NCBI RefSeq assembly: GCF_000186865.1
Contig: NW_008705576.1
Location: 96,524 to 160,523 of the forward strand
Direction of reading: 5' to 3'
From: Aureococcus anophagefferens
Taxonomy: Eukaryota > Sar > Pelagophyceae > Pelagomonadales > Pelagomonadaceae
Length of the DNA: 64,000 nucleotides
This document shows positions 595 to 55,502 of the stretch, piece by piece. The position numbers and the translations under genes are program-made. Each line of letters opens with the position of its first letter. The stretch's first letter is position 1. Under the pieces are notes generated by a model. The model was not told where the DNA came from, made no database searches, and saw only the letters and a list, made by a program, of their open reading frames with translations.

Positions 595-3500
595 ATGGCG
601 TCGCCGGCGGGCTCGACGGGCGCGCCGTCGCCGAAGCTCGGCGCCAAGGAGCGCGAGGAGAAGCGGGCCCGCGAGAGCCGGGCGCGGGCCATGGCGAAGA
701 AGATGGAGCTCAAGAAGGCCATGGAGGAGCGCAAGGAGCCCGAGAGCAACGCCGAGGCCCTCGCGGGCATGCGCGACCTCCACCCGGAGCTCAAGAACCT
801 CGCGCGCCTCCAGGCGCAGCAGCAGCAGGTCTACGAGGCCACGGGCGTGGGCGGCGTCGCGCGGCGGCCGAGCCTCCTGAAGCACGACAGCGTCCGCGGG
901 TCGAACCTCCTCGGCCGCGGGTCGGCGACCATCGTGTCGCGGTCCTCGGACCAGGCCGGCGCCGGCGGCGCGCGCGCGTCCGTGAGCGCGCGCGGCCGGA
1001 GCAGCCTCGTGCCGCGCGCGTCGCTCGCCTTCGCGCCGTCCGCGGAGCAGATCCGCGTGGCCTTCGGGGGCGCGGCGCGGCGTCCCGGGGGCGCGAGCGA
1101 GGTCCCGGCCGGAACCGCTCCGTCGTAGGCAAGGAGGCGCCGGCGGACGACGCGGCGGCGGGCGACGCGGAGGAGGCGTACGTCGCGCCCCACAGGGCGG
1201 CAAAAGAGAGCGAAATTCCCAACTTCAAAGGCTCCGATTTCGGCCGTTTTCCACTCGTTTTGGCTGATTTTTAAACGAGCGATCATCTCTCGGAACGGTC
1301 TCGAAGCGTGGATGCTTTTTATGGAACGCGCTTGCGCGGAACACTCACGTTGAAGCGATGTTGAATCACTCTTTTGCTGCCCAGGCTCCCCAGGCGTCGA
1401 TCCTCGACTCGAACTACGTCGCCGTGCGGCGGCTCTGCAACCGGGACCACCCCTGGCGCAAGCGCTGGGACCTCGCGGTCATGATCGTCATCTCCCTGGA
1501 CTTCCTCATGACGCCCTTCCTCGCCGCGCGCGGACCCGGCGTCGCGAGTGTCTCGCGAAGGCGACGATCGTCCCGCGCAGGTTCAACCAGCATTATTCGC
1601 GCGCGGGGCGGGGCTTCGGCGTCGCCGCGGACCGCGACTACTTCCAGGGCCTCGTCGTCGGCTACGTCGTCGACTGTTTCCTGCTCGTCGACATGGGGCT
1701 CCAGGGCATCACGATCATCTACGACGTCCGCTGGGGCATCGTTGACACGGTCGACGAGCTCCGGCGCCGCTACGTGCGGAGCTGGCGCTTCGTCGTCGAC
1801 GCGGCGGCCTGCCTGCCCTGGGAGGTCGTCGCCCTCACGCTCGGCCGCGGGCCGAACTCGCTCCTGTTTTCGCAGCTCCGCATGAGTCGCGTCGTGCGCA
1901 TCTACCGCGTGCGCGAGACGCTCCAGCGCTGGGGTTTGAACATCCGCATGAACTCGAACGCCGTGGGCATCGTCAACTGCGTGTTCTTCATCGTCTTCGC
2001 GTCCCACTTCGTCGCCTGCGTCTGGTTCTGGCTCGCGTACACGTCGTCGAGCACGAAGCGCGACGTCGTCCAGCAGAGCGTCGAGTCGCTCCTGGCCTCG
2101 GAGCCGAACACGTGGCTGGACCTCGTGCTGGACTGGCAGGACATGAAGACGAGCCTGCTCTACGTCAAGTCGCTCTACTGGACCATGAGCACGATGACGA
2201 CCGTCGGCTACGGGGCCGCGAAGGGGCGCGACGTTCCCAACTTCTCTCTCGGCCGTGTTCCACTCGTTTCGGCTGATTCTTGGACGAGGGATCGTTTCAC
2301 GGAGCGTTTGCGACGCGCGGATGCCTTTTCTTTGGAACGCGCGCGCGCGGAACGCCCACGTCGAAGCGACGTCGAATCGCCCGTTCGCGGCCCAGGTCGG
2401 CTACGGCGACCTCACGCCCGTGTCCACGAAGGAGCACTGGTACGCGATCTTCGTCATGCTCTTCGGGTCCATCCTGTTCGGCTACATCTTCGGCCTCATG
2501 GCGTCGCTCGTCGCGAGCATGGACGTGACCATGGCGGCCTTCCGCATGAAGGTCGACTCCGTGCAGCGGTTCCTCCACTACCGGAACGTGCCGCGGGAGC
2601 TGTGCGAGCGCGTGCACCGCTACCACGACAACACGTGGGCGCAGACGCGGGGCTTCGACGAGCACGCCATCATGTGCGACCTGCCGAGCTCCATCCACCT
2701 CGACCTGGCCCTGCACCTCTACGGCGACATGCAGGGCAGGAAAAGAGTGCGACATTCCCAACTTCAAAGGCTCCTCTCTCGGCCGTTTTCCACTCTTTTT
2801 GGCTGATTTTTGGACGAGCGATCATCTCTCGGAACGGTCTCGAAGCGTGGATGCTTTTTTCTGGAACGCGCGCGCGCGGAACACTCACGTTGAAGCGACA
2901 TTGAATCTCTCTTTTCCTACCCAGGCGACATGATCATCTCCGTGCCGCTCTTCAAGAACGCGGAGCCCGCGTTCGTGCGCGCGATCGTGCTGCGGCTGCT
3001 GCCGACGGTCTTCCCCGAGAACGAGAAGGTCGTGCTCAAGGGCGAGGTGGGCCGCGAGATGTTCTTCATCCAGCGGGGCCACTGCGAGGTCGTCAACGAC
3101 GAGACGGGCGAGATGCTCGTCGAGCTCCAGGACGGCCAGTACTTCGGCGAGGTGTCGATCTTGTGCGAGGCGCGGCGGACGGCGACGGTGCGGTCCGTCA
3201 CGGAGGTCGACCTCCTCGTGCTGAACAAGCAGGACCTGGACCTCGTCTGCAGGGACTTCCCGCGGGTCGCCGCCTGTGTGGAAATCAAACAGTGGGTTAT
3301 CCCGACCAAACTTCAGAACTCTCTCGCTCGGTCACATCGAAGTCGATTCGGCTGATTTTTGGACGAATCGATTGCTCTCGTCGAGTTCTCGAAGCACGGC
3401 AGAAGCGCGCGCGTCGAACCCGTCGCATACGCTCGCATTGAAGTCGGGTCGAAGATTTGATCTCCACGCAGGTCGCGGCGAAGATGAAGGACCTCGCGGA

Positions 3501-4041
3501 CGAGCGGCGGAAGATCATCGGCGCGCGCGTCTGCAAGGTGCTCAACGGGAAGAAGCGCGACGACGCCGCCAAGCCGGAGACGGACGAGGAGCGGCGCCAG
3601 CGCGCGGAGAAGCGGAAGCTCGAGCAGAAATTGGAGGAGGTGTCCGCGAACACGGCCAAGTCGTCGGAGGCGCGCGAGGAGGAGCGGACGCGCATCGTCG
3701 GCCAGACCATGGTCCAGGCCTTCAAGGCGCGCCGCGCGTCGACGCTCGCGCCCGTCGAGGAGCAGAAGGCCGACGTCCAGGCGTCCGTCATGTACGCGGC
3801 GCCGAAGCCGACGCGCGTCGGCCTCGAGCGCATGTCGTCGAAGCGCCGGCTCTCGGCCGCGGGGGGGTCCGTCCGCGCCGTCAACGTCGCCGCGCTCCGG
3901 CAGGCGCCCAAGGTCGCGCCGGACCTCGTCGTCGAGGACAGCAGCGACAGCGACAGCGGCGACGACGACGACGCGCCGCCGCCGGCGTCCCCGGGCTCGA
4001 CGGGGCCGACGCCGGCGAAGCGGGACCTCGAGGAGGCGTAG
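595..4041 (+). CDS. Cyclic-nucleotide-gated / EAG-like K+ channel with four introners
   Basis: Six-transmembrane voltage/cyclic-nucleotide-gated channel acting in a membrane. Exons: 595-1081, 1129-1184, 1385-2202, 2396-2723, 2925-3265, 3472-4041 (about 866 aa). S1 (AVMIVISLDFLM), S2 (VVDCFLLVDMGLQ), an Arg-spaced S4 (LRMSRVVRIYRVR) and S5 (VFFIVFASHFVACVWFWLAY) precede a pore with filter TVGYGD, split by an introner exactly before the Val codon. S6 (MLFGSILFGYIFGLMASLVA), a C-linker and a cNMP-binding domain follow; the phosphate-binding cassette reads GQYFGEVSILCEARRTATV. The C-terminal tail is charged and Asp/Ser-rich. The exon phases agree if one nucleotide is missing near 1530-1550, in the S1-S2 loop; alternatively 1528-1580 is a 53-bp GC-AG mini-intron. 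All other junctions join in frame. Confidence 0.9.
1082..1128 (+). other. 47-bp GT-AG mini-intron in the channel gene
   Basis: The reading frame from 595 would stop at 1126-1128 (TAG). Removing 1082 (GTCCCG donor) through 1128 (CGTAG acceptor) joins phase 1 exons and gives GGAARRKEAPADD, which leads in frame into the next exon. It has no terminal inverted repeat or target duplication, so it is not a full introner. Confidence 0.6.
1185..1384 (+). mobile_element. Introner family A, copy 1 (channel gene, sense)
   Basis: A 200-bp intron: target duplication GCGCCCCA (1185-1192) plus an element starting CAGGGCGGCAAAAG and ending CTTTTGCTGCCCAG. The downstream duplication is GCTCCCCA (1385-1392), one mismatch. 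The donor GC comes from the duplication and the acceptor AG from the element end. Splicing gives EEAYV joined to APQASILD, phase 0. Confidence 0.9.
2203..2395 (+). mobile_element. Introner family A, copy 2 (in the K+ selectivity filter)
   Basis: A 193-bp, more diverged copy. The 8-bp duplication GTCGGCTA is identical on both sides (2203-2210 and 2396-2403). The element begins CGGGGCCGCGAAGG and ends TTCGCGGCCCAG. It splits ACC|GTC, so the spliced codons read T-V-G-Y-G-D. Donor GT from the duplication, phase 0. Confidence 0.9.
2724..2924 (+). mobile_element. Introner family A, copy 3 (channel gene, sense)
   Basis: A 201-bp intron with identical duplications GCGACATG (2724-2731 and 2925-2932). 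The element starts CAGGGCAGGAAAAG and ends CTTTTCCTACCCAG. GC donor, AG acceptor, phase 1. Spliced product reads LYGDMIISVPLFKN, the usual C-linker to cNMP-domain transition. Confidence 0.9.
3266..3471 (+). mobile_element. Introner family B, copy 4 (channel gene, sense)
   Basis: A 206-bp intron with ends CTGTGTGGAAATCAAA and TTTGATCTCCACGCAG, a different terminal repeat from family A. Duplication GTCGCCGC (3266-3273) versus GTCGCGGC (3472-3479), one mismatch. GT donor, phase 0. The product reads DFPRVAAKMKDL. Confidence 0.9.
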
Positions 4042-4274
4042 TCTTCTTATTTTGGGCTGTGTACCGGGGGTGATGACTGGGGGCTCGGCCTCGGGTTCGC
4101 CGATCTATGCGTCGGATAAACCCTTGCCGCAGCGCGAGGTAACACGCCACGCGCAAGCTGAGATTTCGAGTTTTCTGACTGCTCGACTCCTTATCCACTG
4201 CTCCGCGTGCACCGATTGCGACGCGCCGTCCGAGACCCACAAACCTCACACGAAATGCCTCGCCAGACGCCGGG

Positions 4275-10589: not shown

Positions 10590-12012
10590 CGTCGCGGCGT
10601 CGAGGCGCTTCGCGGCGCGGATGACGCGGCCGAGCACGCGGAGCGCGTCGTCGCGGTCGCCGTCGCCGAGCTTGCCGCGGTCCGCGTCGCCGACGGACTC
10701 CGGGCCCAGCGCTTGGACCTGTGTGGAAATCAACCACTGGTTTGGGGGGTCCCCATCAAACTTCAGCACTCTCTATCTCAATCAAATCCAGGTCGATTCG
10801 GCTGATTTTTGGACGGATCGATTGCTCTCGTCGAGCTCTCGAAGCACAGCGAAAGAGTCTGGTCCGAACCGTTCGATTACGCGCCCATTGAAGTCGGGTT
10901 GAAGATTTGAGTTCCACGCGGGCTCGCACCGCGTTGTAGAGCGCCGCGGCCGTCTTCGGGTTCCGGTAGGGGTCCGGCCGCGGCGGCGCGCCGGGCCGGT
11001 CGCCCTCGGGCCGCGCGGCGAGGCGCGCGTCGACCTAGGCGGCGGGGGTTTCGCGGGACAAGAGGGGGTTTCGCGAGGGAGACGCGGCGGTGCGGACGGC
11101 GCGGATCGCCGCGAAGCTGTCGGTCCGCGCGAGGGCCGCGGCGCGCTTGAGGGCGTCGTCCTCGACGTGGCAGGCGGCCTGGAGCAGCCCGTCGGCGCGC
11201 TGAACGGCGCGCTGCCAGAAGGGCGTCGCGCGGAGCGCCGCGGAGCACCGCTGCGTCTGCGGCGGCGGCCGCCGCGGCGCGTCCGCTAGCAGGAGCGTGG
11301 ACCGCAGGTGGCCCAGGAGCTGGCGGTCGACGAGCACGAAGGTGTCCTCGGCCTTGCGCACGCCCGGCGAGGCGTGGAGCTGGAAGAGGGGGCCGCACGC
11401 GTTCAGCACCGAGAAGAGGCCCCCGTGGACGTTGAGGTGGTCCTTGCCGCCGGCGCTGAGCCCGACGAGCGCGCGGCGCGCGCAGCAGGCCTCGTGGGTC
11501 CGGCTCGACGCGCGCGCCTCGCGGCCCGCCTCGACGCCGTCGAAGGCGCTGCCGTGGTCGCTCGGCGTCCGGGGGAGGCTCGCCGTCGCCGCGAGCTCGG
11601 ACAGGACGCCGTTGTGGAGCGCGAGCGGCGGCAGCGGCGGCGCCGGCGGCGCCGCGGGCGCCGCGCGGAAGGCCGCGCGGGGCGGCGCGCGGAAGCCGCC
11701 GCGGGCCGCCGGCGCCGCGGCGAAGCCCCGCGGCGCCGCGGGCGGGACGCCGCCGGGCGGCGCGGACGAGAAGTTCGAGAAGCCGCCGCGCCGCGACGGC
11801 GCGGGCGGCGGCGGCGGGGGCGCGGCGACGGCGGCCGCGACCTGCTCCTGGGCCGACAGGCGCACGGCGTCGGGGCCGTACTTCCTCGCCAGCTGCTCCC
11901 AGAGCACCTCCTCGCGGTCGCCGAAGGACGCGACGATGTTGTCGACGTTGCCGATGTTCTCGGGATTCCAGCGCGCGTAGAAGCGCCGCACGCGCTCGCG
12001 CAGGGAGTCCAT
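10590..12012 (-). CDS. Unknown protein with N-terminal helical module, 3' end unresolved
   Basis: Exons: 12012-11098, 11034-10930 and 10718 to about 10590. The N-terminus MDSLRERVRRFYARWNPENI continues with IVASFGDREEVLWEQLARKY, a short helical pattern I have seen at the start of many protist coiled-coil proteins, followed by a Pro/Ala/Gly-rich linker (residues 70-160) and a conserved-looking 190-residue region with GGLFSVLNACGPLFQLHAS. Removing the 63-bp intron and the introner gives AAIRAVDARLAARPEG and AAALYNAVQALGPESVGD, both in frame. After SKQK the frame stays open without a stop; a donor AAG|GTGCCG is likely there, but the next exon is not identifiable. No function is assigned. Confidence 0.55.
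10719..10929 (+). mobile_element. Introner family B, copy 5 (antisense to its host)
   Basis: A 211-bp intron of the minus-strand gene, while the element itself reads in plus orientation (CTGTGTGGAAATCAACC...). On the gene strand the intron starts GTGCGAGC (duplication) and ends TTTCCACACAG; the next exon starts GTCCAAGC, 6 of 8 matches. Phase 0. The antisense copy still presents AG because the family B inverted repeat is CTG...CAG. Confidence 0.85.
11035..11097 (-). other. 63-bp GT-AG mini-intron
   Basis: On the minus strand it runs from GTCCGC to CCGCCTAG. The last three bases would be an in-frame stop (TAG) if retained. Its removal joins SFAAIRA to VDARLAARPEG in phase 0, and that exon then leads in frame into the introner junction. 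The 3' part is C/T-rich. Confidence 0.6.
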
Positions 12013-17597: not shown

Positions 17598-20500
17598 TTA
17601 GTGCGCGGGCGCCTCGGGCCCCGCCCCCTCGTCCCAGACCTTGGCCGGCGGCCACAGGTCCCGGCCCCGCTTGAACGCGCGGAGCTCGTCCAGGCTCCGG
17701 AGCACGACGCCGCCGGCCGGCGCGGCGTCGGCCGGCGCGTCCGCGGCGAGGTCCGGCGAGTAGACGCGGGACCGGAAGAGGCGCCGCTGCGGCGCGCCGG
17801 GGAGCACGTGCGCCTCGAGCACGCGGACGAGGTCCTCGCGCGACACGTCGCGGAGCTGCGCCGCGCGCGTCGCCACGTGGCTGAACTTGCGCCGCCCGGA
17901 CGAGATCTCGTGCCAGTCCCGCGACACGACGTCGCGCAGGCTCGCGGGCCGCTGGAGGATCTCCGTCGCCAGGCCCTCGCGCTTCAGCGCCAGGTCCGCG
18001 TCGCTCAGGTCCCGGAGCTCCTGGGCGAAGACCGCCAACCACGCCTCCACCCTGTCCTCCAGCTCGGGAGGGCTCTTGCCCGTCGCCGACTGGAGCAAAC
18101 ACGTAAAGCCGATGACGCCGCCCGAGCTATCGAGACCCGCCGACGCGATGTAGCCGAGCTGCTCCACCGTGCGCAGGCGGTTGAACGCGGACGCCTGCGC
18201 GAGGCGGCCGAGTAAGGTCGCCGCGGCGTCCCGCTTCGCCGCGGACGGCCAGCCCGCGTCGACGGCGTCGTCGTCGTCGCCGCTGCGGCCCAGCTGCCAG
18301 TACATCTCGACGGCGTTGTTCGGGTCCGACGGCTCCGCGGCCTTGGCGTTGGGCTCGCCCCGGAACCGCGTGCCGCTCGCCTCGCCCTCGCGGAGCGCCC
18401 GCAGCTCGACGGCGACGCCGAAGTCGCCGCGGGGGAGCCGCAGCGCGGGGTGCGGCGCCAGGGGTTCCGTGGGCTCCCCCGGGTCCGCGACGGCCGCCAG
18501 CGCCGCGGCCGCGTACGCGCGCGCGCCGGCGTCGTCGGCGTTGCCTGGGCAGCACAAGAGTGATTCAACGTCGCTTCAACGTGAGTGTTCCGCGCGCGCG
18601 CGTGACGGAAAAAGCATCCACGCTTCGAGACCGTTCCAAGAGATGATCGCTCGTCCAAAAATCAGCCAAAACGAGTGGAAAACGGCCGAGATAGGAGCCT
18701 TTGAAGTTGGGAATTTCGCTCTCTTGTGCTGCCCTGGGCGTTGCCCGCGACGTAGATCTCGAGGGACCCGTCGCGCAGCCGCGCCCGCGCGATGGCCGCG
18801 GCGACCTCCATGGTCAAGGAGTCGTCCGCCAACGCGGCGCCCAGCGCGTCGACGTCCAGCGCGTCCGCGTCGCCGTCCATGGCGTAGCGCGACCACGTCG
18901 TCACGAGCGACGACGGCTCGTCGCGCGTCGAATCGGAGCACCGCCGCGCGAGCTCCTCCTTCTCCGACTCGAAGAGCTTGCGCTCCGCGTCCGTGAAGTC
19001 GGACTTGGCGACGAGCTCCCGGAGCTTCGTCGCCGCGAGCTCGAGCGCGTCGCGCGCCTTGTCGGAAAATCCCGACGACCGGAGCACGAAGCCCGCGCGC
19101 GACGCGTCCACGGAGAACGACAGCCCCGCGAGCGACGCGTCGTAGGCCTCGTGGTTCATGAGCGCGAAGACCGTGTTGCCGATGGCCTTGGTCGCCGCGA
19201 GCGACCGCGCCGTGTGCTTCTCGGCCTCGCGGAAGAGCGCCGCGACCATGACCTTGGGCACCTTGGGCACCGTCGGCGGCGCGTCGGCGAGGTCCGCGCG
19301 GCGCCAGACCGTGGCCCGGCCCGTGCCCGGCAGGCGGTAGACGCCCGCGCGGTCGTCCGGGTCGTCGACGAGCGACAGGTCCCCGGCGACGTAGCGGTTC
19401 GGCTTCGGCAACGCGAGGCGGGAGTCCCCCGCGTCCGACGCGCGCGCCCAGCGCGCCAAGACGTCGTCGCCCGTGCGGTCCGACCGGTACGTCGCGCCGT
19501 GCCAGGGCTCCCGCGTCCAGCCGCCGTCCGTCGCGTGCTTGCGAGCGTCGAAGACCACGGAATTCTCCGGCGTCAGCGCGTCCAAGACGACCCGCACGGC
19601 CTCTTCGTCGAACGTGCCCGCGAGCGACGGGCCGCTCAGCGGCTGCGTGGGGTGGTCCCAGAGCGCGTCGGCCAGATCCGACGCCGTGTCCGCCGCGCTC
19701 CGCTTCTCCGCGAAGCGGAAGCGCGCGCCGTGGAGCGCCTGGAGTTCGTCGGACAGCGTCCGCAGCGCTTCCACCGGCGCGGACCGCACGGTGCCGACCC
19801 AGGCCCAGATGAGGTCCAGCACGTCGTCGACGCGCGCCTCCCCGAGCTCCGTGAGGTCCACGGAGAGTTCGAAGAGCTGCGCGTCGTCGAATTTCGCGGC
19901 CGTCCCGCAGCTCAGCGCGTCGACCCAGCCGCGGTCGCGCAGAAGCGCGTGCAGACTCTCCTCGCCCTCGTGGCCGAGCAGGTGGGACACGAAGAGCTCG
20001 GGCGTCGCGCCGCGTTCGTGCAGCGTGGACCGCGCGGGCAGCGGCCAGAGCAGCTGCAAAGAGCGCCAGTCGCGCACGGGCACGACCTTGACGACCCGCG
20101 GGACCTCCTCGCTCTCGGCGGCCCAGGGCGTGACCCGCGGCGCCTTGGCCCGGCCCGCGCCCGACGACGGGATGGCCCCGAAGCGGCCGTCGCCGGCGAC
20201 GAGCTTTTCGAGCTCGTCGAGCGACTCCCTGCCGACGACGGCCAAACGCATCTTGTCCCCCACGTAGTGCTCCGCGTTCCAGCGCTTCAGCTCGTCGTGG
20301 AGGCCCCGCTCGCCGTTCAGCGTGTCCAGCGACCCCGTGGAGAAGCGCGAGAACGGGTGCGCGCCGTTCGCCGTCGCCTTGAGGACCGAAAGCATGCGCC
20401 AGCCGTCGTCCTGGAGCGCCATGGCGTACTCCGAATCGACGGCCTTGACCTCCCGCTCGACGCAGTCCAGACTCAGCAGCGGATCCACGAAGAACTGGGC

Positions 20501-31288: not shown

Positions 31289-33107
31289 CTAGGTCGTTAG
31301 CTCTGCCCACCGCGGCCAGACCGCCGCCGCGGCGCAACCCGCGCCGCGGCACGCGAAGAGCTCCGCGAGGGCACCGTGCAACGCGGCTCGGCGCGCGGGC
31401 GTCGCGGCGCCGTAGGCGTTGCGCTGCTGGTAGGGGTCGTCCCCCAAGTCGTAGAGCTCGTAAAATTGAAGCTCCGTGGCGTTCCACGTCCACGAATTGT
31501 CGTATTCGACGTACGCCAGGTCCTCGTCCTCGGTGAGAACCCGGAGCATGCGCCAGCTGTTGGAGTGCGTCGAATCGACGATGTAGCAGTCGCCGTCGCC
31601 GACCTGGGCAGCAAAAGGGTGATTCAACGTCGCTTCAACGTGAGTGTTCCGCGCCCGCGCGTTCCGGATAGAGCATCCACGCTTCGAGACCGTTCCGAGA
31701 GATGATCGCTCGTCCAAAAATCAGCCAAAACGAGTGGAAAGCGGCCGAGATATGAGCCTTTGAAGTTGGGAATTTCGCACCCTTTTGCTGCCCTGTCGCC
31801 GACGCCCTCCGACTCGACGCATTCTGTCGTGTTCGCGCCGTCCGGACCGCGCGGGATGGGCCCGCACCTCGCGTCGCTGCTCCAGATCGACGTATGGTCG
31901 AAATAGTAGGTGCCGACGCTCATGTACTCCACGATGAACGCGCCCCGGCCTGCGGGGCCGTCGCCGCCGAGGAGCCGCGACGCGAAGGAGCTGCCGTCGA
32001 CGTCCTCTGGAATCGCGAGCCCCGCGAGGTCCAAGACCGTCGGCAACAGGTCGACGTTCCCCACGAGGTCCGGCAGCGTCGAGCCCGGCGCGATGCCCGG
32101 CCCGCGGACGATGAAGGGGATGCGCACGTCCGTTTCGTAGGGATGAGTTTTGCTCGTCGTCTGCCGCCACTGGCCGAACTTGTAGCCGTGGTCCGACGTG
32201 TAGACGATGTAGGTGTCGTCCAAAACGCCCATCGCCTCGAGCTTGTGGTAGAGGCTGAACACCAGGTCGTCGACGCTCAGCAGCGACGCCCAGCGATCGC
32301 GGAAATGTTGCGACTGCCAGCACTTGACGCGGTCGTCGATGGGCGGCGTCTGGCGGACGTGCTGGACCTTGTCCTCGTGGCTACAGTTGTAGTTCGGGGT
32401 TTCGGGTATGCCCACGTCGTCGAAGGCGTGCGCGTACCAGGGCGCGGGCGTCGCCGGGAAGTGGGGCGCGTGCGGGCCCACGTAGGCGAAGAACGGGCCC
32501 GTGTGCGCCCGTCGAGCCAGCGCAGCGTCCGGTTGCCGATCTGGGATGTCTGGTACACAGTACCGAACACCGGCGCCGTCTCGTTGAGGAGCTCTTCGTA
32601 GGGTTCCGAGCCCGCTTCGTAGCGGAAGTATTTCAGCCCGTCGTAGTCGTTGTACTGCGACGGGCTGTCGACGTAGGCCGCGGACCGCGCCGCGGCGATG
32701 CGCCGCAGGATATCCGGCTGGTCGTTCGTGACCTTGCCGAAGATGCCGACGTCGTAGCCCGCCGCGGAGAGGAGCCCGAAGAGGCCCGCGTCCGCGCGCT
32801 CCACGAACGACGTGTCCACGTGCATGCACGCGCCGCCCGGCGTGCCGAGGTTGTGGTACATGCGGCCCGTCAGGAACTCCGTGCGCGACGGGCAGCAGAT
32901 GGGCGTGTTGACGAAGGCGTTCGTGAGCAGCGCGCCCTCGTCGACGAGGAGCTTCTGGGTCTGGGGCATGATCTCGAGGCTGCCCATTGAAGTGTAGTCG
33001 CTGCTCCGCCCGAGGCGCGTGTCCTGGTCGTCCGTGAGGATGAACAGGACGTTCGGCTTCGCCGCGGCGCCGACGAGGAGCAGCGCGAAGGGCACGAACA
33101 TCATCAT
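31289..33107 (-). CDS. Secreted sulfatase (N-acetylglucosamine-6-sulfatase type)
   Basis: Exons 33107-31804 and 31603-31289, about 539 aa. Signal peptide MMMFVPFALLLVGAAA. The mature protein starts KPNVLFILTDDQDTRLG with the metal-binding Asp pair; the formylglycine motif is ICCPSRTEFLTGR (C-x-P-S-R). YTSDHGYKFGQW gives the second metal pair (DH). The CCPSR form and the FILTDDQD start are typical of lysosomal-type GlcNAc-6-sulfatases, though algal substrates are probably wall or environmental sulfated polysaccharides. One nucleotide is missing near 32512 (G run), between TLRWLDG and AHTGPFFAYVGPHAPHF. An in-frame upstream ATG at 33152 exists within a local duplication. Downstream exons join in phase 0. 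Confidence 0.85.
31604..31803 (-). mobile_element. Introner family A, copy 7 (sulfatase gene, sense)
   Basis: A 200-bp intron. Minus-strand start GTCGGCGA (31803-31796), then CAGGGCAGCAAAAG, end CTTTTGCTGCCCAG; the exon resumes with an identical GTCGGCGA (31603-31596). GT donor, phase 0. The spliced peptide is CVESEG-VGDGDCYIV. Confidence 0.92.
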
Positions 33108-33222: not shown

Positions 33223-35537
33223 ATGACGGCATCAATCCCTCAAATGGCGATCAGCCTCGCGCTGCTGCTCGCGGCAACCCATGCGCTCGCACCCTCGCAA
33301 CCACCGGTCACGCTCCACTACACGCCGAAGCACCGCTTGCACCGGAACCGCCGCGGCCACCCGGAACACCCCGGCCGCCTCGACGAGTTCATCCTCCCCA
33401 CGGCGCGAAATCTCGGCGACGCCGTCGCCTGGCGCGAACTCGGCGCGCCGCGGAGCGACGCGTTGGACGCCGTGCTGCGCGTGCACGACGGCGACCACGT
33501 GGCGCGCGTCGAGCGCGCGTCCGCGCGGCGCTTCGGTCGCGCGCGGCTCGGGCCGGACACGTTCGTGAACCGGCGATCGCACGAGGCCTTCCTCTGCGGC
33601 GTGAGCCTCTGGCTCGACGCCGTCGACGGCGCGCTGAACCGGTCGTCGGGCGTCGAGTTCGCCCTGAGCCGGCCGCCGGGCCACCACGCGGGCCGCGCCT
33701 CGGCGGACGGCTTCTGCGTCTACAATTACTGCGCGGCCGCCGCGGCGCACGCGCTCGACGTACATAAATGCGACTGGGTCGCGATCCTCGACTGGGACGC
33801 GCACCACGGCAACGGCGTCGCGGCCTACGCCGACGAGGACCCAAGAATTTGCTACGCGTCGGTCCACCAGGCGCCGCTCTGGCCGAACACGGGCGACGAC
33901 GCCAGCGACCGCGGCTTCCACGGGAACCGGTTGAGCGCGCCCGTGGCCCGCGGCGCCGGGCCGGCGGCCTTCGAGGCGGCGTGGCGGTCCTGCGTCGACT
34001 TCTGCGAAGCGTTCGCGGAGAAGAGGGGCGGCAAAGGCCTCGTGATCGTCTGCGCGGGCTTCGACGCGTTGGAGGACGATCCCCTGGTCCAGTGCCGCCT
34101 GGGCGTCGACGACTTCGCGCCCCTCATGGAGGCCGTGCTCGACTGGCAGCCAACCGTCGTCGCCGGCCTCGAGGGCGGCTACTGCGCGGCCATGGGGCCC
34201 GCGCTGCGCGCGGCGCTCGACCCGGCGCTCGGCGGCGACCTCGCCGCGCGCGTGCTCGCGGCGCGCGCGCCGGACGGCGGGAGCGACGACGGCGGGCGGG
34301 TCGCGCTGTGCTCGGAAGCGAACCTGCCGCCGCGGGGCGGCCTGAAGCGGTGCGAGGGCGTCGTCGTCTGCGTCGACGCCGACGGCGCGCCGCGCGCCGT
34401 CGCCGCGCGCCTGCCGCCGCTCGGGCTGCCCACCTCGGGCTTCGGCGACTTCGACCCGAACGTGCGCACGCTCCGGGACCGCGCCACGGGCACGAAGTTC
34501 TACGTCGACAGCGGCGACGTCCGCGGGCCCTGGTGCCCCGAGTGGGCCTTCGGGCGCCGGGGCGGCGACAAGCCGGGCCGGCCGAAGCTCTCGACCGTGG
34601 CCCGCAAGGCCGCGTCCTGGGTCCTCTACCGCCGGGCGCGCCGGGACCGCCGGACGCTGGCGACGGCGCGCATCGAGGTCGTCGACGGCGCCGCGACGGT
34701 GTCCCGCGCCGAGTACGACGCGCTGGTCGCCGCGGCCGCGAAGACGTCGATCCCGACGCGCAAGCGGCTCCGGCGGCTCGTGCTCGCCGGCGCGATCTCC
34801 CAGGGGAACTTCGACGCGTTGGCGGCGTCGGGCGCGGCGACGATCACGACGGCCTACGACGCGAGCGCCGGCACCGTGCGGTCGAGCTGCGTCACTTCCG
34901 GCGGCTTCGAGCTCGGCTCCTACCTCGTCCGCCTCTCCGGCGAGCCGACGCCCGGCACGGACGCCGTCATCGCCCAGCTCCTCCACGGCGGCGACTTCGC
35001 CCGGGTGAAGCGGTCCGCCGACGGCTTCGCGAAGATCGCCGCGGGCGTCGCGGTCTTCGTGGAGCCGGCGGCGCGCGGCCGGAACCTGGGGGTCGTGCTC
35101 TTCAAGGAGGCCATGCGCGCGTGCCGCGCGCTGGGCTTCGACTACATGCTCTTCATCGAGCAGGACACGGGCAGCGGGCGGCTCGTGGCGTGGTACGAGA
35201 GCATCGGCTTCGTCGTCGTGCCGTCGGAGGCGATCCCGGGCTTGGACCAGGGCAGCAAAAGAGAGCGAAATTCCCAACTTCAAAGGCTCCGATCTCGGCC
35301 GTTTTCCACTCGTTTCGGCTGATTTTTGGACGAGCGATCATCTCTCGGGACGGTCTCGCAGCGTGGATGCTTTTGTCGGAACGCGCGCGCGCGGAACGCT
35401 CACGTTGAAGCGACGTTGAATCACCCTTGTGCTGCCCAGGCTTGGACCGCGCGATGGTCGGCCCCCTGCCGGACGACGCGGCCTACTACGACGCGGACCG
35501 CGAGGACGCGATCCGCGTCGTTCAGTTCGAAAGGTAA
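33223..35537 (+). CDS. Histone-deacetylase-like domain fused to a GNAT acetyltransferase
   Basis: Exons 33223-35239 and 35440-35537, 704 aa. The N-terminus (MAISLALLLAATHALAPSQP) looks like a signal or bipartite plastid peptide. Residues 25-350 form a zinc hydrolase of the HDAC superfamily: SRPPGHHAGRASADGFCVYN contains the catalytic His pair (about 153-154), AILDWDAHHGNGV the zinc Asp and His, and AGFDALEDDPL the second Asp region. The form is closer to bacterial, acetylpolyamine and plastid HDACs than to Rpd3. Residues about 600-670 match GNAT: GVAVFVEPAARGRNLGVVL (acetyl-CoA loop RGRNLG) and RLVAWYESIGFVVV. The substrate is unknown. The middle 360-590 has no recognised domain. Confidence 0.8.
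35240..35439 (+). mobile_element. Introner family A, copy 8 (HDAC-GNAT gene, sense)
   Basis: A 200-bp intron with identical duplications GCTTGGAC (35240-35247 and 35440-35447). The element starts CAGGGCAGCAAAAG and ends TTGTGCTGCCCAG. GC donor, phase 1. Splicing yields EAIPG-LDRAMVGPLP and leaves a 32-residue last exon. Confidence 0.93.
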
Positions 35538-37318: not shown

Positions 37319-37319
37319 G

Positions 37320-46057: not shown

Positions 46058-47590
46058 TTACCCGCCGCGTTTGGATCTGCACTCGACTGCCGCGTGGCTC
46101 GCGATCCAGCCGCAGCCTGGCGGCATGGGCCGAGCGTCGACGAGCGCGTGCGTGTGCCAGCCGTAGAGCTTGTCGCTCGGCAGGATGTCCGTGCGGGACG
46201 GTTTGCGCGCCTGGATCCGCGGGTCCTGCCAGTCCTCGAAGGAGTGCTGCCACGAGTCCACGCGCTCCCGGAACAACGTGTCGTGCGACGCGACGATCTC
46301 GACGAATTCGAGGCCGTCGCAGCCGACGGCCTCGCGGTTCGCGGCGTCGCCGAAGAACGCCGCCATCGCGCAGGGGTCGTCCAGCACGGTGTCCATGCGG
46401 TAGGCGTCCCGGAGCTTCTCGAGCACGGCGACGAAGAAGTCCGCGAGGCATTTCGGGCATAAAAGGTTTTGGTCGACGGCTTTCGCGCCCTCGACGAGCG
46501 CCGCCGCGCGCGACGCGTTCCGCTCCAGATCCTTCACCGTCGCGAGCAGGTCGTCGCCGTCGACCTCGAGGTGCGTCGCGCCCTCCTTGAGAGCCGCGTA
46601 GTACCACTCGACCGCCGGCTGGCGCCACTGCAGCACGACGGCGCCGAGGAACCACAGATGGTTCAGATTCCGCGAGTAAGAGCCGTGCGTCGACCCCGGC
46701 AAGTTCAGCAGATACTTGTACTTCGCGTAGTCCGCCTGCGACGTCCAATTCCCGTCGCTGAGCTTCTCCGGCTGTTTCGCGGCCTCCTCCAGCGCGTGCG
46801 TGTACGGCATCGGTTGGATTTCGCCGCGTTTATCCTTAACGCCGTCGCAGAGGGACCCGTCGGTGCGCGGCTTGCAGTGCCGCGCCTCTTGGCACTTGGC
46901 GTCGACGTGCGCCGGATCGTCCAACGTCAAAGCCACGGCGCGCAGGCGCGCGTAGTTCCCGAAATCCTTCTTGCATACCAGCCCGGCGTCCCCCGCGGCC
47001 GAGCCTTTCTCGCTGTGGCGGATCGCGCCGCGCCAGAAAGCGGTCTTTTCCCGCTCCGCGAAGGGGTGGTGCCGGCTCGCCTCGTGGAGCCGCGCGCGGA
47101 AATCGTGCCAATCCTGCAACGTGGCGACGTAGGGGTTCGGCACCATGATGCCGGGTCTTGGACGGTCCTTGGCCATGATGAGCACGGGCTCCTTGTCGTG
47201 CTTCGTCTGGCCCGTGGAGGTATGCGACCAGAGGTAGGCGGCGTTCGGGAGCTTGTAGCCGAGCTCGCGCATCGACGCGAGGAAACGGACGTGGTTCCGC
47301 TGCTTGCCCTCGTTGGTCGCGTCGACGAACGAGCGATCCACCAAAATCTTGTTGTTCCACAGGAGCACCGTGCCGTCCTCGTCCCCGGTCTTCCACAGGT
47401 AGGACCTGAGGAAGCGCGACGCGGACCCGCGCGGGTCGCTGGCGTTCCAGTCGGCCGTCGGCCGGCCGCCGTAGCGGTCGCCGTAGGCGTCGACGCTCGC
47501 GCGCATGGCCTCGTACATCTTCGCGACGTCAGTGGCGTCGTGCGCGGCGCGCGACGCGGCGAGGAGCACGAGGCCCAGGAGCGGGCGCAT
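46058..47590 (-). CDS. GT90 / CAP10-like glycosyltransferase, copy 2
   Basis: 510 aa with signal peptide MRPLLGLVLLAASRAAHDAT. Same family as the gene at 42932. Landmarks: TAFWRGAIRHSEKGSAAG and KYKYLLNLPGSTHGSYSRNL, the latter 20 residues identical to copy 1, then WFLGAVVLQWRQPAVEWYYA. It lacks the basic tail of copy 1. At DNA level the block 46590-46740 is nearly identical to 43610-43760 (the first 48 bases match exactly) although flanks have diverged, consistent with strong selection or gene conversion. Confidence 0.8.
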   Translation of the reverse strand: MRPLLGLVLLAASRAAHDATDVAKMYEAMRASVDAYGDRYGGRPTADWNASDPRGSASRFLRSYLWKTGDEDGTVLLWNNKILVDRSFVDATNEGKQRNHVRFLASMRELGYKLPNAAYLWSHTSTGQTKHDKEPVLIMAKDRPRPGIMVPNPYVATLQDWHDFRARLHEASRHHPFAEREKTAFWRGAIRHSEKGSAAGDAGLVCKKDFGNYARLRAVALTLDDPAHVDAKCQEARHCKPRTDGSLCDGVKDKRGEIQPMPYTHALEEAAKQPEKLSDGNWTSQADYAKYKYLLNLPGSTHGSYSRNLNHLWFLGAVVLQWRQPAVEWYYAALKEGATHLEVDGDDLLATVKDLERNASRAAALVEGAKAVDQNLLCPKCLADFFVAVLEKLRDAYRMDTVLDDPCAMAAFFGDAANREAVGCDGLEFVEIVASHDTLFRERVDSWQHSFEDWQDPRIQARKPSRTDILPSDKLYGWHTHALVDARPMPPGCGWIASHAAVECRSKRGG

Positions 47591-49359: not shown

Positions 49360-49389
49360 CTCGGAAGGATCGCGGGGGCCCGGCCGCGC

Positions 49390-51404
49390 TCACCACTTGT
49401 GGACGTTGAGGCGCTTGGCGCCCGCGCGGACGGCGGAGGAGTCGCTGCACGCGGGGCTCGGCGGCGTCGCCGGCTCGCGGCCCGGGTAGCGGGGCTGGCT
49501 CCCGCGGAGCCGCGCCCGCGACACGGAGACGGCGGCCGCGGACGGCGGCGGCTCCGCGCCGCCCGCGTCGGAGATGAAGCTCGAGCCGTCGCAGGAGACG
49601 AACGCGAGGCCGTTGCGGCTCATGTCGTCGCCGAGGCGGATGTAGCCGACGCCGGCGGAGCGGAACTGGGGCGCGAGCTTCCGCGGCGGCACGTCCGTGT
49701 CCCAGTAGGGGCAGAACGGCGCCTCGTCGACGGCGACGGCCGACTTGGGCTGCTTGCCGTCGTCGCGGAAGCGCTGGGGGCTCAGGATGACGTCGACGCG
49801 GCTCTCGCAGCCCGCGAAGAAGGCCCGGACGTCGTCGGCGGTGCTAAAGGGCACGGGCGCGCCGTCGAGGAGCGAGAGGCACTGAAGGTCGCTCGAGCCC
49901 GGCCGCGTCCGCGACGCGAGGTCGACCAACCGCGCGTGGCAGCGGTCGAGCTCGAGGACCAGGGACCCCCGGTCCCCCTTCAGGAGCGCGCCGCCGACGG
50001 ACCGCGCGGCCTCGACGGGGCCGCTGTAGCGCACGCGGCCGTAGACGAGGCACAGCAGCGCGCCGCGCTTCGTCTCGACCAAGACTTCGCCCCGGCCGCC
50101 GAGCCGCGTCATGGCGTCGCCCAGGGGCCCGTTGTCGTGGGCGATGTAGAGCGGCGCCGCCGCCGGCGGCTCCTCGGCGAAGGGGATGGGCGCGACGGCC
50201 TTGGGGGTTCCCGCGGGCTGCGCGCCGTCGGAGCGCGTCCGCCGCGGCCGCTCGCTCGAGAGGCCGCCGTTCGTCGGCGACCGCGCGTCGGCGCCGCGCC
50301 GCGGCGCGCGGCTCACGTGCTGGGCCGGCGGCGTCGGCGGCGGGCTGTCGGCCGGCGGCGGCGGCGTCGGCGGCGGCGTCGCGTGCTGCTGCTGCCGCGC
50401 CATGAGCGCGCGCGCGGCGTTCGGCGGCCGCGCGGACGCACCCCCGGCGTCGTCGTCGAGCCACGTGCCGCCCTCGCGGCGCCGCCCGCCGCCCCCCCGG
50501 TGCGCGGGGCCGCGGCCGCCGTGGCCGAGGCGCGTCGGCGTCACGGACCTGGGCAGGAGAAGAGTGCGAAATGCCCAACTTCAAAGGCTGCTCTCTCGGC
50601 CGTTTTCCACTCGTTTCGGCTGATTCTTGGACGAGCGATCGTCTCTCGGAACGGTCTCGACGCGTGGATGCTTTTTTCAGAACAGGCGCGCGCAAAACAC
50701 TCACGTTGAAGCGAACTTGAATCACTCTTTCCCTGCCCCGTCTCGAACCCGAAGACGCCCTCGATGCCGTCGCGCGCGAAGAGGTTCTCGTCGGCGCCCC
50801 GCTGGTCGCTGGGGCCGAGCGCGTCGGCGGCGCTCTGGATGCGCCGGTTGTCCGAGTTGCGGTTCGCGCCGAGCACGCGCGACAGCGACGCGTCGACGGC
50901 CGACGACCGGAGCCGCGCGTTCTCGCTCTCGAGCGCGGCGATGCGCCGCGCCTGGTCCGCGACGACGCGCCGCAGGCGGGCGACCTCGCGCTGGGCGTCG
51001 TTGTGGTCGCGGTCGCGGCCCGGCGGCGGCGGGTCCTCCCGAGTCCCCCGCGCGGGGTCGCTCGCGGACCGGTCGCGCCGCGGGCTCGCGTCGCCGGGGA
51101 TCGTCACCGGCGGCGGCCGCGCGCCGGCGGCGGCGGCGGCGCCCTCGCCGTAGGAGAGGTCGTTCACGGCGGCCTCGTCGCGCCGCGCCTCGCCCCCCCG
51201 GCGCCCGGCGCCCGCCCCGGGGTGGCCCCGGGCGTGCTCGCTCGGGCGCGCCGCGCCGCGGCCGCGGTGCGTGCCGCTGCCCACGACGCCCAGGGCCCCG
51301 GGCCAGGAGTCGTGGGACGGCGCCGCGTCCGACGCACCGTAGGCCGTGCTCCGCCGCAGCTCGCTCGTCGCCCGGAACGGGTTCGCCTCGCGCGCTTGCG
51401 CCAT
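49390..51404 (-). CDS. Unknown protein with coiled coil, interrupted by antisense introner
   Basis: Exons 51404-50749 and 50548-49390, 604 aa. It starts [20 protein letters not shown]; a single coiled coil ([20 protein letters not shown]) lies near residues 150-185, and the C-terminal 300 residues look globular, e.g. [20 protein letters not shown] and [20 protein letters not shown]. Splicing joins [10 protein letters not shown] in phase 2. The end is Pro/Ser-rich ([20 protein letters not shown]). No family is recognised. It is divergent from the acyl-CoA dehydrogenase, with starts 103 bp apart, and its stop is 30 bp from the convergent PH-FYVE gene. Confidence 0.65.
50549..50748 (+). mobile_element. 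Introner family A, copy 9 (antisense to its host)
   Basis: A 200-bp intron of a minus-strand gene, but the element reads in plus orientation (CTGGGCAGGAGAAG ... CCCTGCCCCG). On the gene strand the intron begins GTTCGAGA then CGGGGCAGG and ends TTCTCCTGCCCAG; the next exon begins GTCCGTGA (6 of 8 matches). GT donor, phase 2. Confidence 0.88.
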
Positions 51405-51507: not shown

Positions 51508-52794
51508 ATGGCTCTGTTGGCCTCCGCGTCGCGCCGCCTCGCCGCCCGGGCCGCCCGCCCGGGCCCGAAGAAGTTCAGCAGCCTCGCGGCCCTCGGCGAG
51601 GAGCACCAGCAGATCCGCGACGTCGCGCGGGCCTTCGCCGAGGAGCGGCTCTACCCCATCGCCGGCGAGGTGGACCGGCTCCACCGCTACCCCGGCGAGG
51701 TCGTGTCGGAGCTCGGGGAGATGGGCATGATGGGCATGATGGTCGAGGAGGCCCACGGCGGCGGCGACATGGACGCCCTGTCCTACGCGGTGGCCCTCGA
51801 GGAGGTGAGCCGGGGCTGCGCGAGCACCGGCGTGATCATGTCCGTGAACAACAGCCTCTACTGCGCGCCCGTCCGCGCCAACGGCGACGAGGCCCAGCTC
51901 GCCGAGTTCCTCGCGCCCTTCGCCGCGGGCGAGAAGCTCGGCTGCTTCGGCCTCAGCGAGCCGGGCAACGGCAGCGACGCCGGCGCGGCGTCGACGACGG
52001 CGCGCGACGACGGCGACGCGTGGGTCCTCAACGGCACCAAGGCCTGGATCACGAACGCCCACGAGGCCGACGCCGCCGTCGTCTTCGCGACGACGGACAA
52101 GTCCCTCAAGCACCGGGGCATCTCCGCGTTTCTTGTGGACACGAAGGCCGAGGGCTTCTCCGTCGGCGCCGCCGAGGACAAGCTCGGCATCCGCGGGTCG
52201 TCGACCGCGAACCTCATCATGGAGGACTGCCGCATCCCCAAGTCCTGCCTCCTCGGCGAGCGCGGCGACGGCTTCAAGATCGCCATGCGGACGCTCGACG
52301 GCGGCCGCATCGGCATCGCGGCGCAGGCGCTAGGCATCGGCCAGGCGGCGCTCGACGTCGCCGCGACCTACGCGGCGGACCGCACGGCCTTCGGCAAGCC
52401 GCTGACGAATTTGTACGCCATCCAGCTCAAGATCTCCGAGATGGCCTGCAAGCTCGAGGCCGCGCGCCTCCTCACGTGGCGCGCGGCCTCGCGCAAGGAC
52501 GCGGGCCTCGCCTACACCAAGGACGCGGCCATGGCCAAGCTCTGCGCGTCCGAGGCCGCGACCTTCGCCGCCCACCAGGCCATCCAGGTCCTCGGGGGCA
52601 TGGGCTACGTCTCCGACATGCCCGCGGAGCGCTTCTACCGCGACGCGCGCATCACGGAGATCTACGAGGGCACGTCCGAGGTCCAGCACGTCGTCATCGC
52701 CCTCAACGTCCTCAAGGCCTACGCCGGCGAGGCGACGGCGCTCCCCGCCGCGCCGCACAAGCCCGAGCACGAGGACGTCGCCGCCGCGGCCTAG
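51508..52794 (+). CDS. Acyl-CoA dehydrogenase, short-chain type, mitochondrial
   Basis: 428 aa. FAD enzyme for the first step of fatty-acid or branched amino-acid beta-oxidation. The N-terminus ([20 protein letters not shown]) is a mitochondrial presequence. Then [12 protein letters not shown] and [17 protein letters not shown] (FAD and substrate loops), the signature [20 protein letters not shown], and [20 protein letters not shown] with the catalytic Glu in EGTSE, as in butyryl-CoA dehydrogenase. No introns. It is convergent with the nucleoside hydrolase, 42 bp between stops. Chain-length preference is inferred only from resemblance to ACADS. Confidence 0.92.
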
Positions 52795-52836
52795 CCCGCG
52801 GCCGCCCCGCGTAACCGGCCCGCCCGGACCGCGCCG

Positions 52837-55502
52837 TTACTTGGGCGACTTGAGGGCGAGGATGCGCGCGAGGATGGTCTTGGAGATGGTCTCCTGCTTC
52901 GCGACGAGGCGCTCGTGGTGGAGGTCGACGCAGTCCGGGACCGCGTCGTCGAGGTCGACGGTGCCGACGCCGTCGATCGCGAACGACGGCGGGTCGTCCG
53001 GGAAGTGGGACGCGTTCATGAGGACGCCCTTGAAGATGAGGCGGCACAGGAAGAGCCGGAGCTCCGTGACGTCGCGCGCGCCCGGGTCCGCCTGCGTGGA
53101 CCCGACGACGTCGTGCGTCGTGCCGCGGACGTCGTAGCGCCGCGTGTCGTAGAAGTGGGCCGCGATGCGCGGCACCGCGGCGAGCAGCGCGAGGGGCGTG
53201 TAGACGTTGAAGCTCGACACGTAGGGCCAGACGTCCTCGGACGCCGGCGGCAGCGGCGGCGCGTCGCGCGACCGCCGCGGCGTCCGCGGCGTCGACGGGC
53301 TGCTCGGCGACGGCGGCGGGTCGACGAGCGCGTCGTCGTCGCCGCAGAACGTGTCGCGGAACCAGGTCGCGTCGCAGCGGTCCGCGAGCTTGCGCTGGCG
53401 GTCGCGGTGGCCCGCGGGCAGGTGCACCTGGCGCCACAAATGCTCGATGGACGCGCGCTGCGCGTCGCAGACCGACGCGCCGACGGGCCCGCCGCGCGCG
53501 CCGAGCGCGTCGTAGACGCTCCTCGGCAGGCGGCAGGCCAGGGCCAGGTGCCTCGAGATGACGGTCATGGGCACGCCCAGCGCCTGGCACCGCGCCGTGA
53601 AGAACGTCGCCGCGACCTCGTCCGCGCGGTTGTTCGACGCGTCCGCGTCGGGGACGAGCGCCGCGCAGGGGACGACGCCGTCGTCCTCCACGCCCAGGCC
53701 CGTGGCCACGACGCCGCCCATGACGACGGCGCCCAGCGTCTTCTCGCGGAAGAGCTCCGGCGACCGCGACGCGAAGTCCGCGGCGTCCGTCTGCGAGTGG
53801 ATGACGACGAGGCGCACGCCCGTCTGCGGCGCGCGCGCGTAGAGCTCCTCGAGCTGGCAGGCCCGCTTCGACGCGTGCTGCACCAGCACGCGCGTGTTGT
53901 GCAGGCCCAGGGCGTTGAGCGTCGCGCGCGTCCGCGCGGCCGCGGCCTCCAGCGTCGTCACCTCGCCGAACCGCTCCTCGGACGTGAGCACGATGCCCAG
54001 CAGGTCGACGGCCTGGAGCTCGATGAGCGCTCTCAGCAGCGCCAGGCCCATGAACTCGTCGGCCTTGTTCGGCTGGACCTGCATGGTCACGACGATCTGC
54101 GACTTGGCGTGGTGGTCCAGCACCAGGCCCGTCGCGTAGGCCGCGCGCAGCAGCGACGCGCATTCGGCCTTCGCCTCCGGGCTCGCGAAGCCGTCGTTCT
54201 CCTTGGACACGCCGATGAGCAGGTGGGACGCGCCCGTTCCCGCCGCCCCGCGTCGCCGGCACGTCGACGGCCACCGGGTCGAAGAGCAGGTCCCGGAGGA
54301 GCGGCACGGCGGCGATGAGCGCCAAGGTGTCGTACATGTTGAACGACTTCACCAGATCCCAGATGGGGTCCCCGGCGCCGCGGTCGTCCACGCCGCCATC
54401 CCCGCCGCAGAACGTCGCCTTGAACCACGCGGCGTCGCAGCGCGCCGGCAGCCCCGCGCGCGCGTCGCCCTCCGACGCCGCGCGGCGCCTGTGTGCAAAT
54501 CAACCAGTGAGCTGGGACGTCGGGGCCAAACTTGAGAATTCTCTAGCTCGGTCAAATCGAAGTCGATTCGGCTGATTTTTGGACGAATCGATTGCTCTCG
54601 TCAAGTTCTCGAAGCACGGCAGAAGAGTCTGATCATAGCCGTTTTAATACGCGCACATTGAAGTCGGGTTGAAGATTTGATTTGCACACCGCGCGGCGCC
54701 ACAACGCCTCGATCGACGTCCGCTGCGCGTTCCGCAGGCGCCAGCCGATGGGGCTGCCCGTGTGGGCCAGGCCCTCGTAGACGCGCCGCGTGATGGGCAC
54801 CTGGTAGGCCGCGTCGCGGCCGACGATTACCAGGCGCACGCCGAGCTCCTGGCAGCGCCGGTAGAAGAACGCGGCCGCCGTCGCGTCGAAGACGTTGTTG
54901 TGCGCCGTGTCCGGCTCCAGCAGGCCGCCCCGGTCCACGCTCGCCGCCGTGACGCCGCCCATGATGCTCACCTCCTTGACCTTGGCCGCGAAGAGCGCCT
55001 CGTTGTCGCGGAGGAAGAGCGCGGCGTCCTTGAGCGACGCGATGACGACGACGCCGACGGACTTGGGCTCCGCGGCGACGAGGATGCGGTAGAGCAGCGT
55101 CCGCCCCGTCTCCAGGGAGAAGGACCGCTCGGAGCCGTCCGGGGGCATGTAGGAGAACGACGCCGCGTCCGGCGCCTCGTTGCGGCCCGCGACGTCGCCG
55201 CCGTCCGTGCCGAAGGCCACGGGCACGGCGTGGAGGCCGATCATGTCCATGGTGCCCCGCGCGAGCTGCGCGCGCTTGAAGGACGGGTGGAGCACGGAGA
55301 CGACGCCCAGCAGGTCGATGAAGTTGAACTCGATGAGGTAGCGCGCGAAGATCATGGCCATCTCGTCGTCGAGGTCCGTCCCGGCGTCGGTGAACATGAC
55401 GATCTTCTCCGGCACGATGTCCATGCGCGACGGCGCCATGCTCAGCTGGCGGTGGAGGGGCTTGTCGCGCGTCTTCAGTGCGAGCGGCGGGAGGGATGCC
55501 AT
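52837..55502 (-). CDS. Tandem (two-domain) nucleoside-hydrolase-like protein
   Basis: Exons 55502-54700 and 54488-52837, about 817 aa after discounting one extra G near 54248. Domain 1 begins VMFTDAGTDLDDEMAMIFAR, an equivalent of the DxDxxxDD calcium/ribose site of inosine-uridine hydrolases; VKEVSIMGGVTAASVDRGG and DTAHNNVFDATAAAFFYRRC follow the family order. Domain 2 repeats the layout with VTMQVQPNKADEFMGLALLR, LGAVVMGGVVATGLG and DADASNNRADEVAATFFTAR, but lacks the acidic metal cluster (MQVQPNKADE). Both end similarly (FKATFCGGDGG / FRDTFCGDDDA and VKSFNMYDTLALIAAVP / VSSFNVYTPLALLAAVP). Domain 2 may be catalytically dead. Confidence 0.75.
54489..54699 (+). mobile_element. Introner family B, copy 10 (antisense to its host)
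   Basis: A 211-bp intron of a minus-strand gene, with the element in plus orientation (CTGTGTGCAAATCAACC...). On the gene strand the intron starts GCGCCGCG then CGGTGTGCAAATC and ends TTTGCACACAG; the exon resumes with an identical GCGCCGCG. GC donor, phase 2. It lies between the EALWR codons in domain 1. Confidence 0.9.

Follow-up and report, generated by a model that had tools for sequence, protein, structure and literature searches.

Ten segments in the 64,000-nucleotide window that we analyzed as a whole are, with a probability of about 0.95, introner elements of Aureococcus anophagefferens, that is, non-autonomous MITE-like DNA transposons acting as spliceosomal introns. One gene of the window and the gene next to it match a record of this species, and the genome appears to be that of A. 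anophagefferens or of a strain very close to it. The initial annotation had placed ten introns of 193-211 bp here, and self-comparison of the window followed by delimitation of the ends bore this out, yielding seven predicted introns of family A and three of family B. The elements measure 185-203 bp and carry the end motifs CWGGGCAGC or CTGTGTGG. All ten copies have terminal inverted repeats (TIRs), as had been claimed, whereas the 8-bp target-site duplications (TSDs) also claimed for all of them were complete in six copies (8/8) and imperfect in four (7/8 in two, 6/8 in two). The predicted introns start with GT in five cases and GC in five, and all end in CAG. Similarity between copies stops at the tips; the flanks are unlike, and every element is bordered by an 8-bp duplication specific to it. 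The density of elements in the window is about twice the average.

On the plus strand, A1 occupies 1185..1384 (element 1193-1384; TSD GCGCCCCA/GCTCCCCA, 7/8), A2 2203..2395 (TSD GTCGGCTA, 8/8), A3 2724..2924 (TSD GCGACATG, 8/8), B1 3266..3471 (TSD 7/8) and A6 35240..35439 (TSD GCTTGGAC, 8/8), the last close to the end of a histone deacetylase (HDAC)/acetyltransferase frame. The minus strand holds A4 at 18545..18744 (TSD GCAACGCC, 8/8), A5 at 31604..31803 (TSD GTCGGCGA, 8/8) and three copies that are inverted relative to the family orientation: B2 at 10719..10929 (TSD 6/8), B3 at 54489..54699 (TSD GCGCCGCG, 8/8) and A7 at 50549..50748 (TSD 6/8), whose tips are altered to CTG on the left and CCG on the right of the element strand.

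A2, A3 and B1 lie in a cyclic-nucleotide-gated channel gene (1385..4041, plus strand) with Ion_trans and cNMP_binding domains, where A2 interrupts the selectivity filter TTVGYGD and B1 sits directly past the cyclic-nucleotide-binding domain. Removal of the three elements left a single reading frame to the stop, raised the Ion_trans score from 54.9 bits, with a match that ended just within A2, to 80.5 bits, and made the cNMP_binding match appear. The product aligned with 8vta_A, a channel of the SthK type, over 253 residues without a gap, spanning all three junctions; 8vta_A was nearly equal to 7rtf_A (SthK) as a match. We infer that A1 belongs to the same gene, with a further junction between A1 and 2203: the exon downstream of A1 was judged channel-like by eye. 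The codon model gave a weak call for the opposite strand at A1 (margin 19). In the sulfatase gene (31292..33104, minus strand), which holds A5, the relative P0001 was continuous across the A5 junction; the gene shows a one-base frame slip against P0001 near 32499. Of nine window frames submitted, these two and the HDAC/acetyltransferase frame had Pfam matches. Position and strand fit the proposed total of seven host genes, with the introns at 2203, 2724 and 3266 in one frame, that at 1185 probably joining them and the other six lying apart.

The genome-wide search that the initial annotation had called for found 1916 core matches for family A and 1433 for family B in the 49-Mb genome, 3,349 in total, and the two families share a common core. 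Reversed-pattern controls gave no match, so the abundance exceeds chance. Many similar predicted introns thus occupy unrelated sites of one genome. For detailed counts we compiled a catalogue of 69 copies (57 A, 12 B): 40 A copies drawn at random from the first 50 listed places, all core-intact and on one contig; the six A copies that best matched A1; 12 copies (3 A, 9 B) from 20 random loci; the ten window copies; and one copy from locus L031. Loci L029 and L032 stayed outside it, as did L001, which is part of the window. Because the 40 drawn A copies were picked by an intact-core pattern, the A set is biased toward intact ones. The TSD was perfect in 44 of the 57 A copies and six of the 12 B copies. 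The earlier statement that no copy is intergenic stood within the window but not as a rule for the genome, where a strong bias was found: 64 of the 69 catalogued copies had confident coding flanks, compared with 283 of 468 random points. Of the 80 pairs listed among 158 remaining repeat pairs in the sample, most fell within one locus, and one 673-bp pair linked two loci at 98.5% identity.

To read the splice sites on the gene strand, which was set by codon usage alone, we dropped two copies whose strand call was weak and eight whose ends were unclear, copies with a 4/8 or 5/8 TSD being among the eight. This left 59 clean copies, 49 of family A and a thin sample of 10 of family B. The first TSD copy began with GY in 58 of the 59, against a background of 19.9%, and the 3′ tip was AG in 58 of the 59; one family A copy (L047) violated both rules on its called strand. 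An insertion thus carries one predicted splice site and takes the other from the duplicated target. On the other strand, 18 of the 49 A copies started with GY and one ended in AG. For family B the opposite strand gave GY starts in 3/10 and CAG ends in 6/10, and the B tip therefore says little about strand; these 6/10 copies have a splice-ready tip at both ends, and the family lies five and five in the two orientations in genes. The TSD end in family A was slightly enriched for RC (18/49, p 0.006); target preference may therefore account for some of the GY excess. Removal kept the reading frame in 45 of 49 A copies and in all 10 B copies (55/59; one third expected by chance), the exceptions being L007, L026, L047 and L072.

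The inverted repeat of family A has one asymmetric base, at position 2, that goes with the predicted spliced strand. In 14 of the 49 A copies, 13 of them from the pattern-picked set, this base and the splicing strand were swapped jointly. The base was changed at both ends in this class, and the copies lie antisense in genes; overall, 15/49 A and 5/10 B copies are antisense. No swap intermediate was seen, since none of the 49 A copies had an AG-competent tip at both ends. The swapped copies clustered in the A tree, with 5 changes compared with 13.3 in shuffles, none of 500 shuffles being as low. The tree placed eight of 15 swapped copies in one group (84/82), three in a second (86/61) and four singly, two of these four among sense copies. 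The forks of the tree are weakly supported and its bootstrap had yet to settle; a single origin appeared in 0 of 200 bootstrap trees, and the starred branches still allow one. Because of the clustering, we set aside a rewriting of the tips at each insertion. A tentative explanation, at somewhat less than even odds, is that family A has reversed the polarity of its splicing, maybe repeatedly. In this scenario, an inversion would have turned the interior around relative to the tips, for instance through recombination between the inverted repeats, and the reversed element, spliced from the opposite strand, would have multiplied. The swapped copies point to a link between the spliced strand and a single, switchable base pair at each end.

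The TIRs, the 8-bp TSDs, a 5′ site from the target, a 3′ site from the element and the restored frame make non-autonomous DNA transposons serving as spliceosomal introns, as originally proposed, the best reading of the sequence. A transposase acting in trans would make staggered cuts, 8 bases apart, in the target, and fill-in after insertion would duplicate the 8 target bases. If these start with GT or GC when read in the sense direction, and if CAG forms the downstream tip of the element, a GY...AG intron would result, consisting of the first target copy plus the element, and its exact removal would leave the mRNA unchanged. Insertions within genes that break the rule would be lost, selection presumably acting as the filter. 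Transposons that were instead retained in the RNA, disabling their genes, would hardly produce a strand-coupled GY/AG rule in 58/59 copies or a frame kept in 55/59, and three such insertions sit in the channel gene, whose protein is otherwise intact; we regard this reading as highly improbable. Old ordinary introns made alike by gene duplication or conversion could explain why three, probably four, of the ten window introns share one gene, but similarity that ends at the tips, differing flanks, locus-specific TSDs and 3,349 core matches across the genome leave this origin next to no credence. The genic bias is compatible with RNA-based spread, in which an intron is reverse-spliced and afterwards reverse-transcribed; passages of PMC9860276 describe this proposal for fungal introner-like elements. 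The TIRs, the 8-bp TSDs and the antisense copies would be unexpected under that route, which we consider very unlikely.

As to the mobilizing enzyme, the P superfamily makes 8-bp TSDs. Among five transposase families, PF21787 alone matched the genome, at one place (C25:178372-178818; its control was mute), and a piece of this region matched at 5.5e-8. However, the matched stretch contains three TAG stops, and a search of the readable sequence around it (all but 4,262 bases upstream), allowing up to 2 mismatches, found neither A nor B ends, making a P-type transposase a doubtful candidate. In exon-by-exon searches, PF05699 (hAT) and PF18758 (KDZ) had no genome match, with mute controls, and neither did PF10551 or PF12762, with controls ringing in 3 and 1 genomes, respectively. 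Given the mute controls and the exon-wise reading, a transposase of another family may be the mobilizing enzyme. Genome patterns with exact ends around a foreign interior, as expected of an autonomous partner, gave no match for B ends and two unsupportive ones for A ends: one can be read as an ordinary copy of 192 bp, altered at its right end (left end at C4:419418), and the readable part of the other, in locus L030, matched no element model. Diverged partners would escape both patterns, which demand exact ends. Viral contigs gave a single exact core match, which inspection of 601 bases by eye attributed to chance, with no element present.

Introners are strong evidence on the bulk origin of new spliceosomal introns, and the window clearly illustrates a case already in the literature. 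The agreement of the codon-usage strand with the tip and TSD strand in nearly every clear copy offers a test of splicing-driven selection that can be applied to any assembly. Introners of this kind are already known in A. anophagefferens and were reportedly treated by Huff, Zilberman and Roy in 2016. The small detail added here consists of the GY/AG counts on the gene strand and the joint swap of the A terminal base and the splicing strand. The coupling of TIR position 2 to the splicing strand and the common core of A and B do not figure in the literature passages on these introners, and may be in that 2016 account. Excerpts of PMC12768974 do not name Aureococcus, while passages in PMC9860276, PMC9481584, PMC7789003 and PMC10228655 cite A. 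anophagefferens introners of similar size and build, the last naming the species as one of two in which such introners were described. The excerpted accounts give a characteristic intron length of about 210 bp (PMC9481584), like our 193-211 bp; direct repeats, TIRs of constant length and canonical splice motifs (PMC7789003); and splice-site co-option with insertion both ways round (PMC10228655), all as read from the sequence here. In the part of PMC9860276 that covers the Aureococcus sp. MAG TARA_AOS_82 (Fig. 2F), introners of the same genus likewise have an 8-bp TSD, but both splice sites lie inside the element and the transcript gains 12 bp, whereas the predicted transcript is unchanged here. 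Those of Symbiodinium microadriaticum (Fig. 2B of the same source) share with ours the TIRs, a 3′ site of their own and a 5′ site from the TSD, which is 4 bp long there and 8 bp here.

Self-comparison of the 64-kb window gave two sets of alike segments, family A with seven members and family B with three. The ends of these ten elements were placed by hand on printed sequences and then checked. Each element is 185-203 bp long, is bounded by terminal inverted repeats (TIRs) and adjoins an 8-base direct repeat, the target-site duplication (TSD), which is perfect in six copies and matches at 7/8 positions in two and at 6/8 in two. On the gene strand the layout is exon, GYNNNNNN, element with a CAG end, GYNNNNNN, exon. 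Five of the introns begin with GT and five with GC. Intron length is not divisible by three in nine of the ten; the exception, A3 (2724-2924, + strand), contains two stops when the gene frame is read through it. The initial annotation had described ten introners here, which to it looked like non-autonomous DNA transposons that became introns on insertion; the observation is true and was correctly read, in a species already known for such introners.

A2 (2203-2395, +), A3 and B1 (3266-3471, +) all lie within one gene, and taking them out of the sequence gives one frame that is open to a stop at 4041. The predicted spliced product is a cyclic-nucleotide-gated channel, with Pfam matches to Ion_trans (80.5 bits), cNMP_binding (59.1) and Ion_trans_2 (45). 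In the unspliced frame (1354-2904), Ion_trans scored 54.9, with a match that stops at residue 287, just within A2, and Ion_trans_2 scored 21.2, under the cut-off; because this frame terminates within A3, the comparison of spliced and unspliced scores is only partial. A 272-residue piece of the spliced channel aligned without a gap over 253 residues to residues 185-437 of the structure record 8vta_A, spanning the A2, A3 and B1 junctions. This record is named a Crp/Fnr-family regulator, and near-equal matches include 7rtf_A, named SthK. The selectivity filter of the channel, TTVGYGD, is split by A2. The exon following A1 (1185-1384, +), upstream of A2, is open in a different frame (frame 0); if A1 and A2 belong to one gene, at least one further junction must therefore lie between them.

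A5 (31604-31803, -) lies in a sulfatase gene (31292-33104, -). The related protein P0001 matched this gene at 98.0% and 97.4% identity in two upstream pieces and at 93.3% downstream, and read straight through the A5 junction. At 32499 the gene shows a frame slip of one base relative to P0001, either an assembly error or a genuine change. Three pieces of the gene matched P0052, whose source name is Aureococcus anophagefferens sulfuric ester hydrolase, at 90.7-90.9%; the differences are clumped between long identical runs, a pattern that suggests slips of frame or errors in the models. The P0052 record also matched a gene at 28253-27683, one piece at 70/70 residues and another at 63% with a gap. 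Elsewhere in the window, 43255-44423 and 46234-47423 form a diverged duplicate close by (~1.2 kb, 69% identity). The GC content of the window is 72.4%; the published genome is given as 56 Mb with 67.4% GC (PMC9481584). We regard the present genome as that of A. anophagefferens or of a strain very near to it.

The splice rule was examined on the gene strand, called by a codon model that was first trained on 1,486 codons from homology-supported genes and afterwards on the loci that had been fetched. Sufficient flank was available for 69 of the 75 copies found; 61 of these had clear ends, and the strand call was confident for 59. Unclear ends removed eight copies (six A, two B), and weak strand calls removed another two: A1, which the model placed on the opposite strand with a low margin, and one just below the limit (locus L052). 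The TSD copy begins with GY in 58/59 copies (A 48/49, B 10/10), and the 3′ tip is AG in 58/59 (A 48/49, B 10/10). When the opposite strand was read, GY was present in 18/49 A and 3/10 B copies, and AG in 1/49 and 6/10. The GY background in flanking exons was 19.9% (p = 1e-39). The reading frame is kept in 45/49 A and 10/10 B copies, with all three intron phases in use. The sole A exception to both the GY and AG rules (L047, C1:858492-859715) also does not keep the frame on the called strand and is possibly an unspliced or intergenic insertion. Introns starting with GT and with GC numbered 29 each among the 59 clear copies. In animals, fungi and plants, 1.2-2.1% of introns are reported as non-canonical, GC-AG being the commonest among them (PMC7789003). 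Flanks were confidently coding for 64/69 copies versus 283/468 random points (p = 1.2e-8), and at two stricter limits for 57/69 and 54/69 versus 251/468 and 204/468 (p = 3e-6 and 6e-8). With only the window, itself picked for its introner copies, and the random loci, the count was 20/22 (p = 0.003), and 17/22 and 16/22 at the stricter limits (p = 0.046 and 0.008).

The family A inverted repeat, C[A/T]GGGCAGC, carries a constant mismatch at position 2. The right tip is CAG in 34 sense A copies, and 14 antisense A copies have the tips swapped. Across both classes, the upstream tip on the gene strand is CAG in 39, CGG in 8, CCG in 1 and CTG in 1, and the downstream tip is CAG. No A copy of the 49 is AG-competent at both tips. 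In a tree of 52 A copies built without the element ends, the 15 swapped copies cluster: one group holds eight, another three, and four stand alone, with 5 changes required versus 13.3 in shuffles, although the forks are weak. Because of this clustering, the swap appears to be passed on between copies and not to form anew with every insertion, and it may have arisen more than once. If the segment between the TIRs were to invert, the swap would follow in one step. In family B, AG-competent tips are present at both ends in 6/10 copies, and five copies are sense and five antisense.

Core patterns matched 1916 times for A (≤1 mismatch) and 1433 times for B (≤2 mismatches) in the 49.05 Mb (86 contigs) searched, together 6.8 per 100 kb; reversed control patterns gave 0 matches genome-wide. 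Twenty random 10-kb loci (200,000 bases, 23,488 of them unreadable) held 4 A and 10 B copies, or ~7-8 per 100 kb, which agrees with the genome-wide density. The density in the window (10 per 64 kb) is ~2x the average. Two of the random loci share a dispersed repeat of another kind, a 673-bp segment at 98.5% identity (L027:3372-4044 and L028:8588-7916). In the window and random loci, all-pairs median identity was 91.1% (nearest 94.8%) for A and 80.3% (nearest 87.2%) for B (n = 10 each), and the closest A pair in the full set was 99.5% identical. Because A copies are more alike, family A looks younger than B. The two families have ~147 bp of interior in common (A 26-173, B 38-185; E down to 4.5e-10), and their inverted repeats differ.

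Exact-pattern searches found no A or B ends around a foreign interior. PF21787, the core of P-type transposases, had one match in the genome with a silent control; the hAT, KDZ, MULE and IS1595 transposase families had no match, with silent controls for hAT and KDZ. No A or B ends were found beside the P-type gene in its readable flank. A predicted intron of this gene contains an antisense A-like copy (L031:5554-5713, contig C25; GT...AG, 160 bp, TSD 6/8), which is old. The frame is open over the predicted junction for a stretch, which we take to be transposase-like in look, and then meets a stop.

Our literature search, covering the titles and abstract openings that were listed but not Huff et al. 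2016, found no account of tip polarity among them, a weak negative. Introners of A. anophagefferens were already published (Huff et al. 2016, as described in citing papers). Both orientations were seen by Huff et al. according to PMC10228655, and by that account introner orientation itself is therefore already known. Beyond this known case, the present analysis adds the polarity detail and a test of the splicing rule without RNA.
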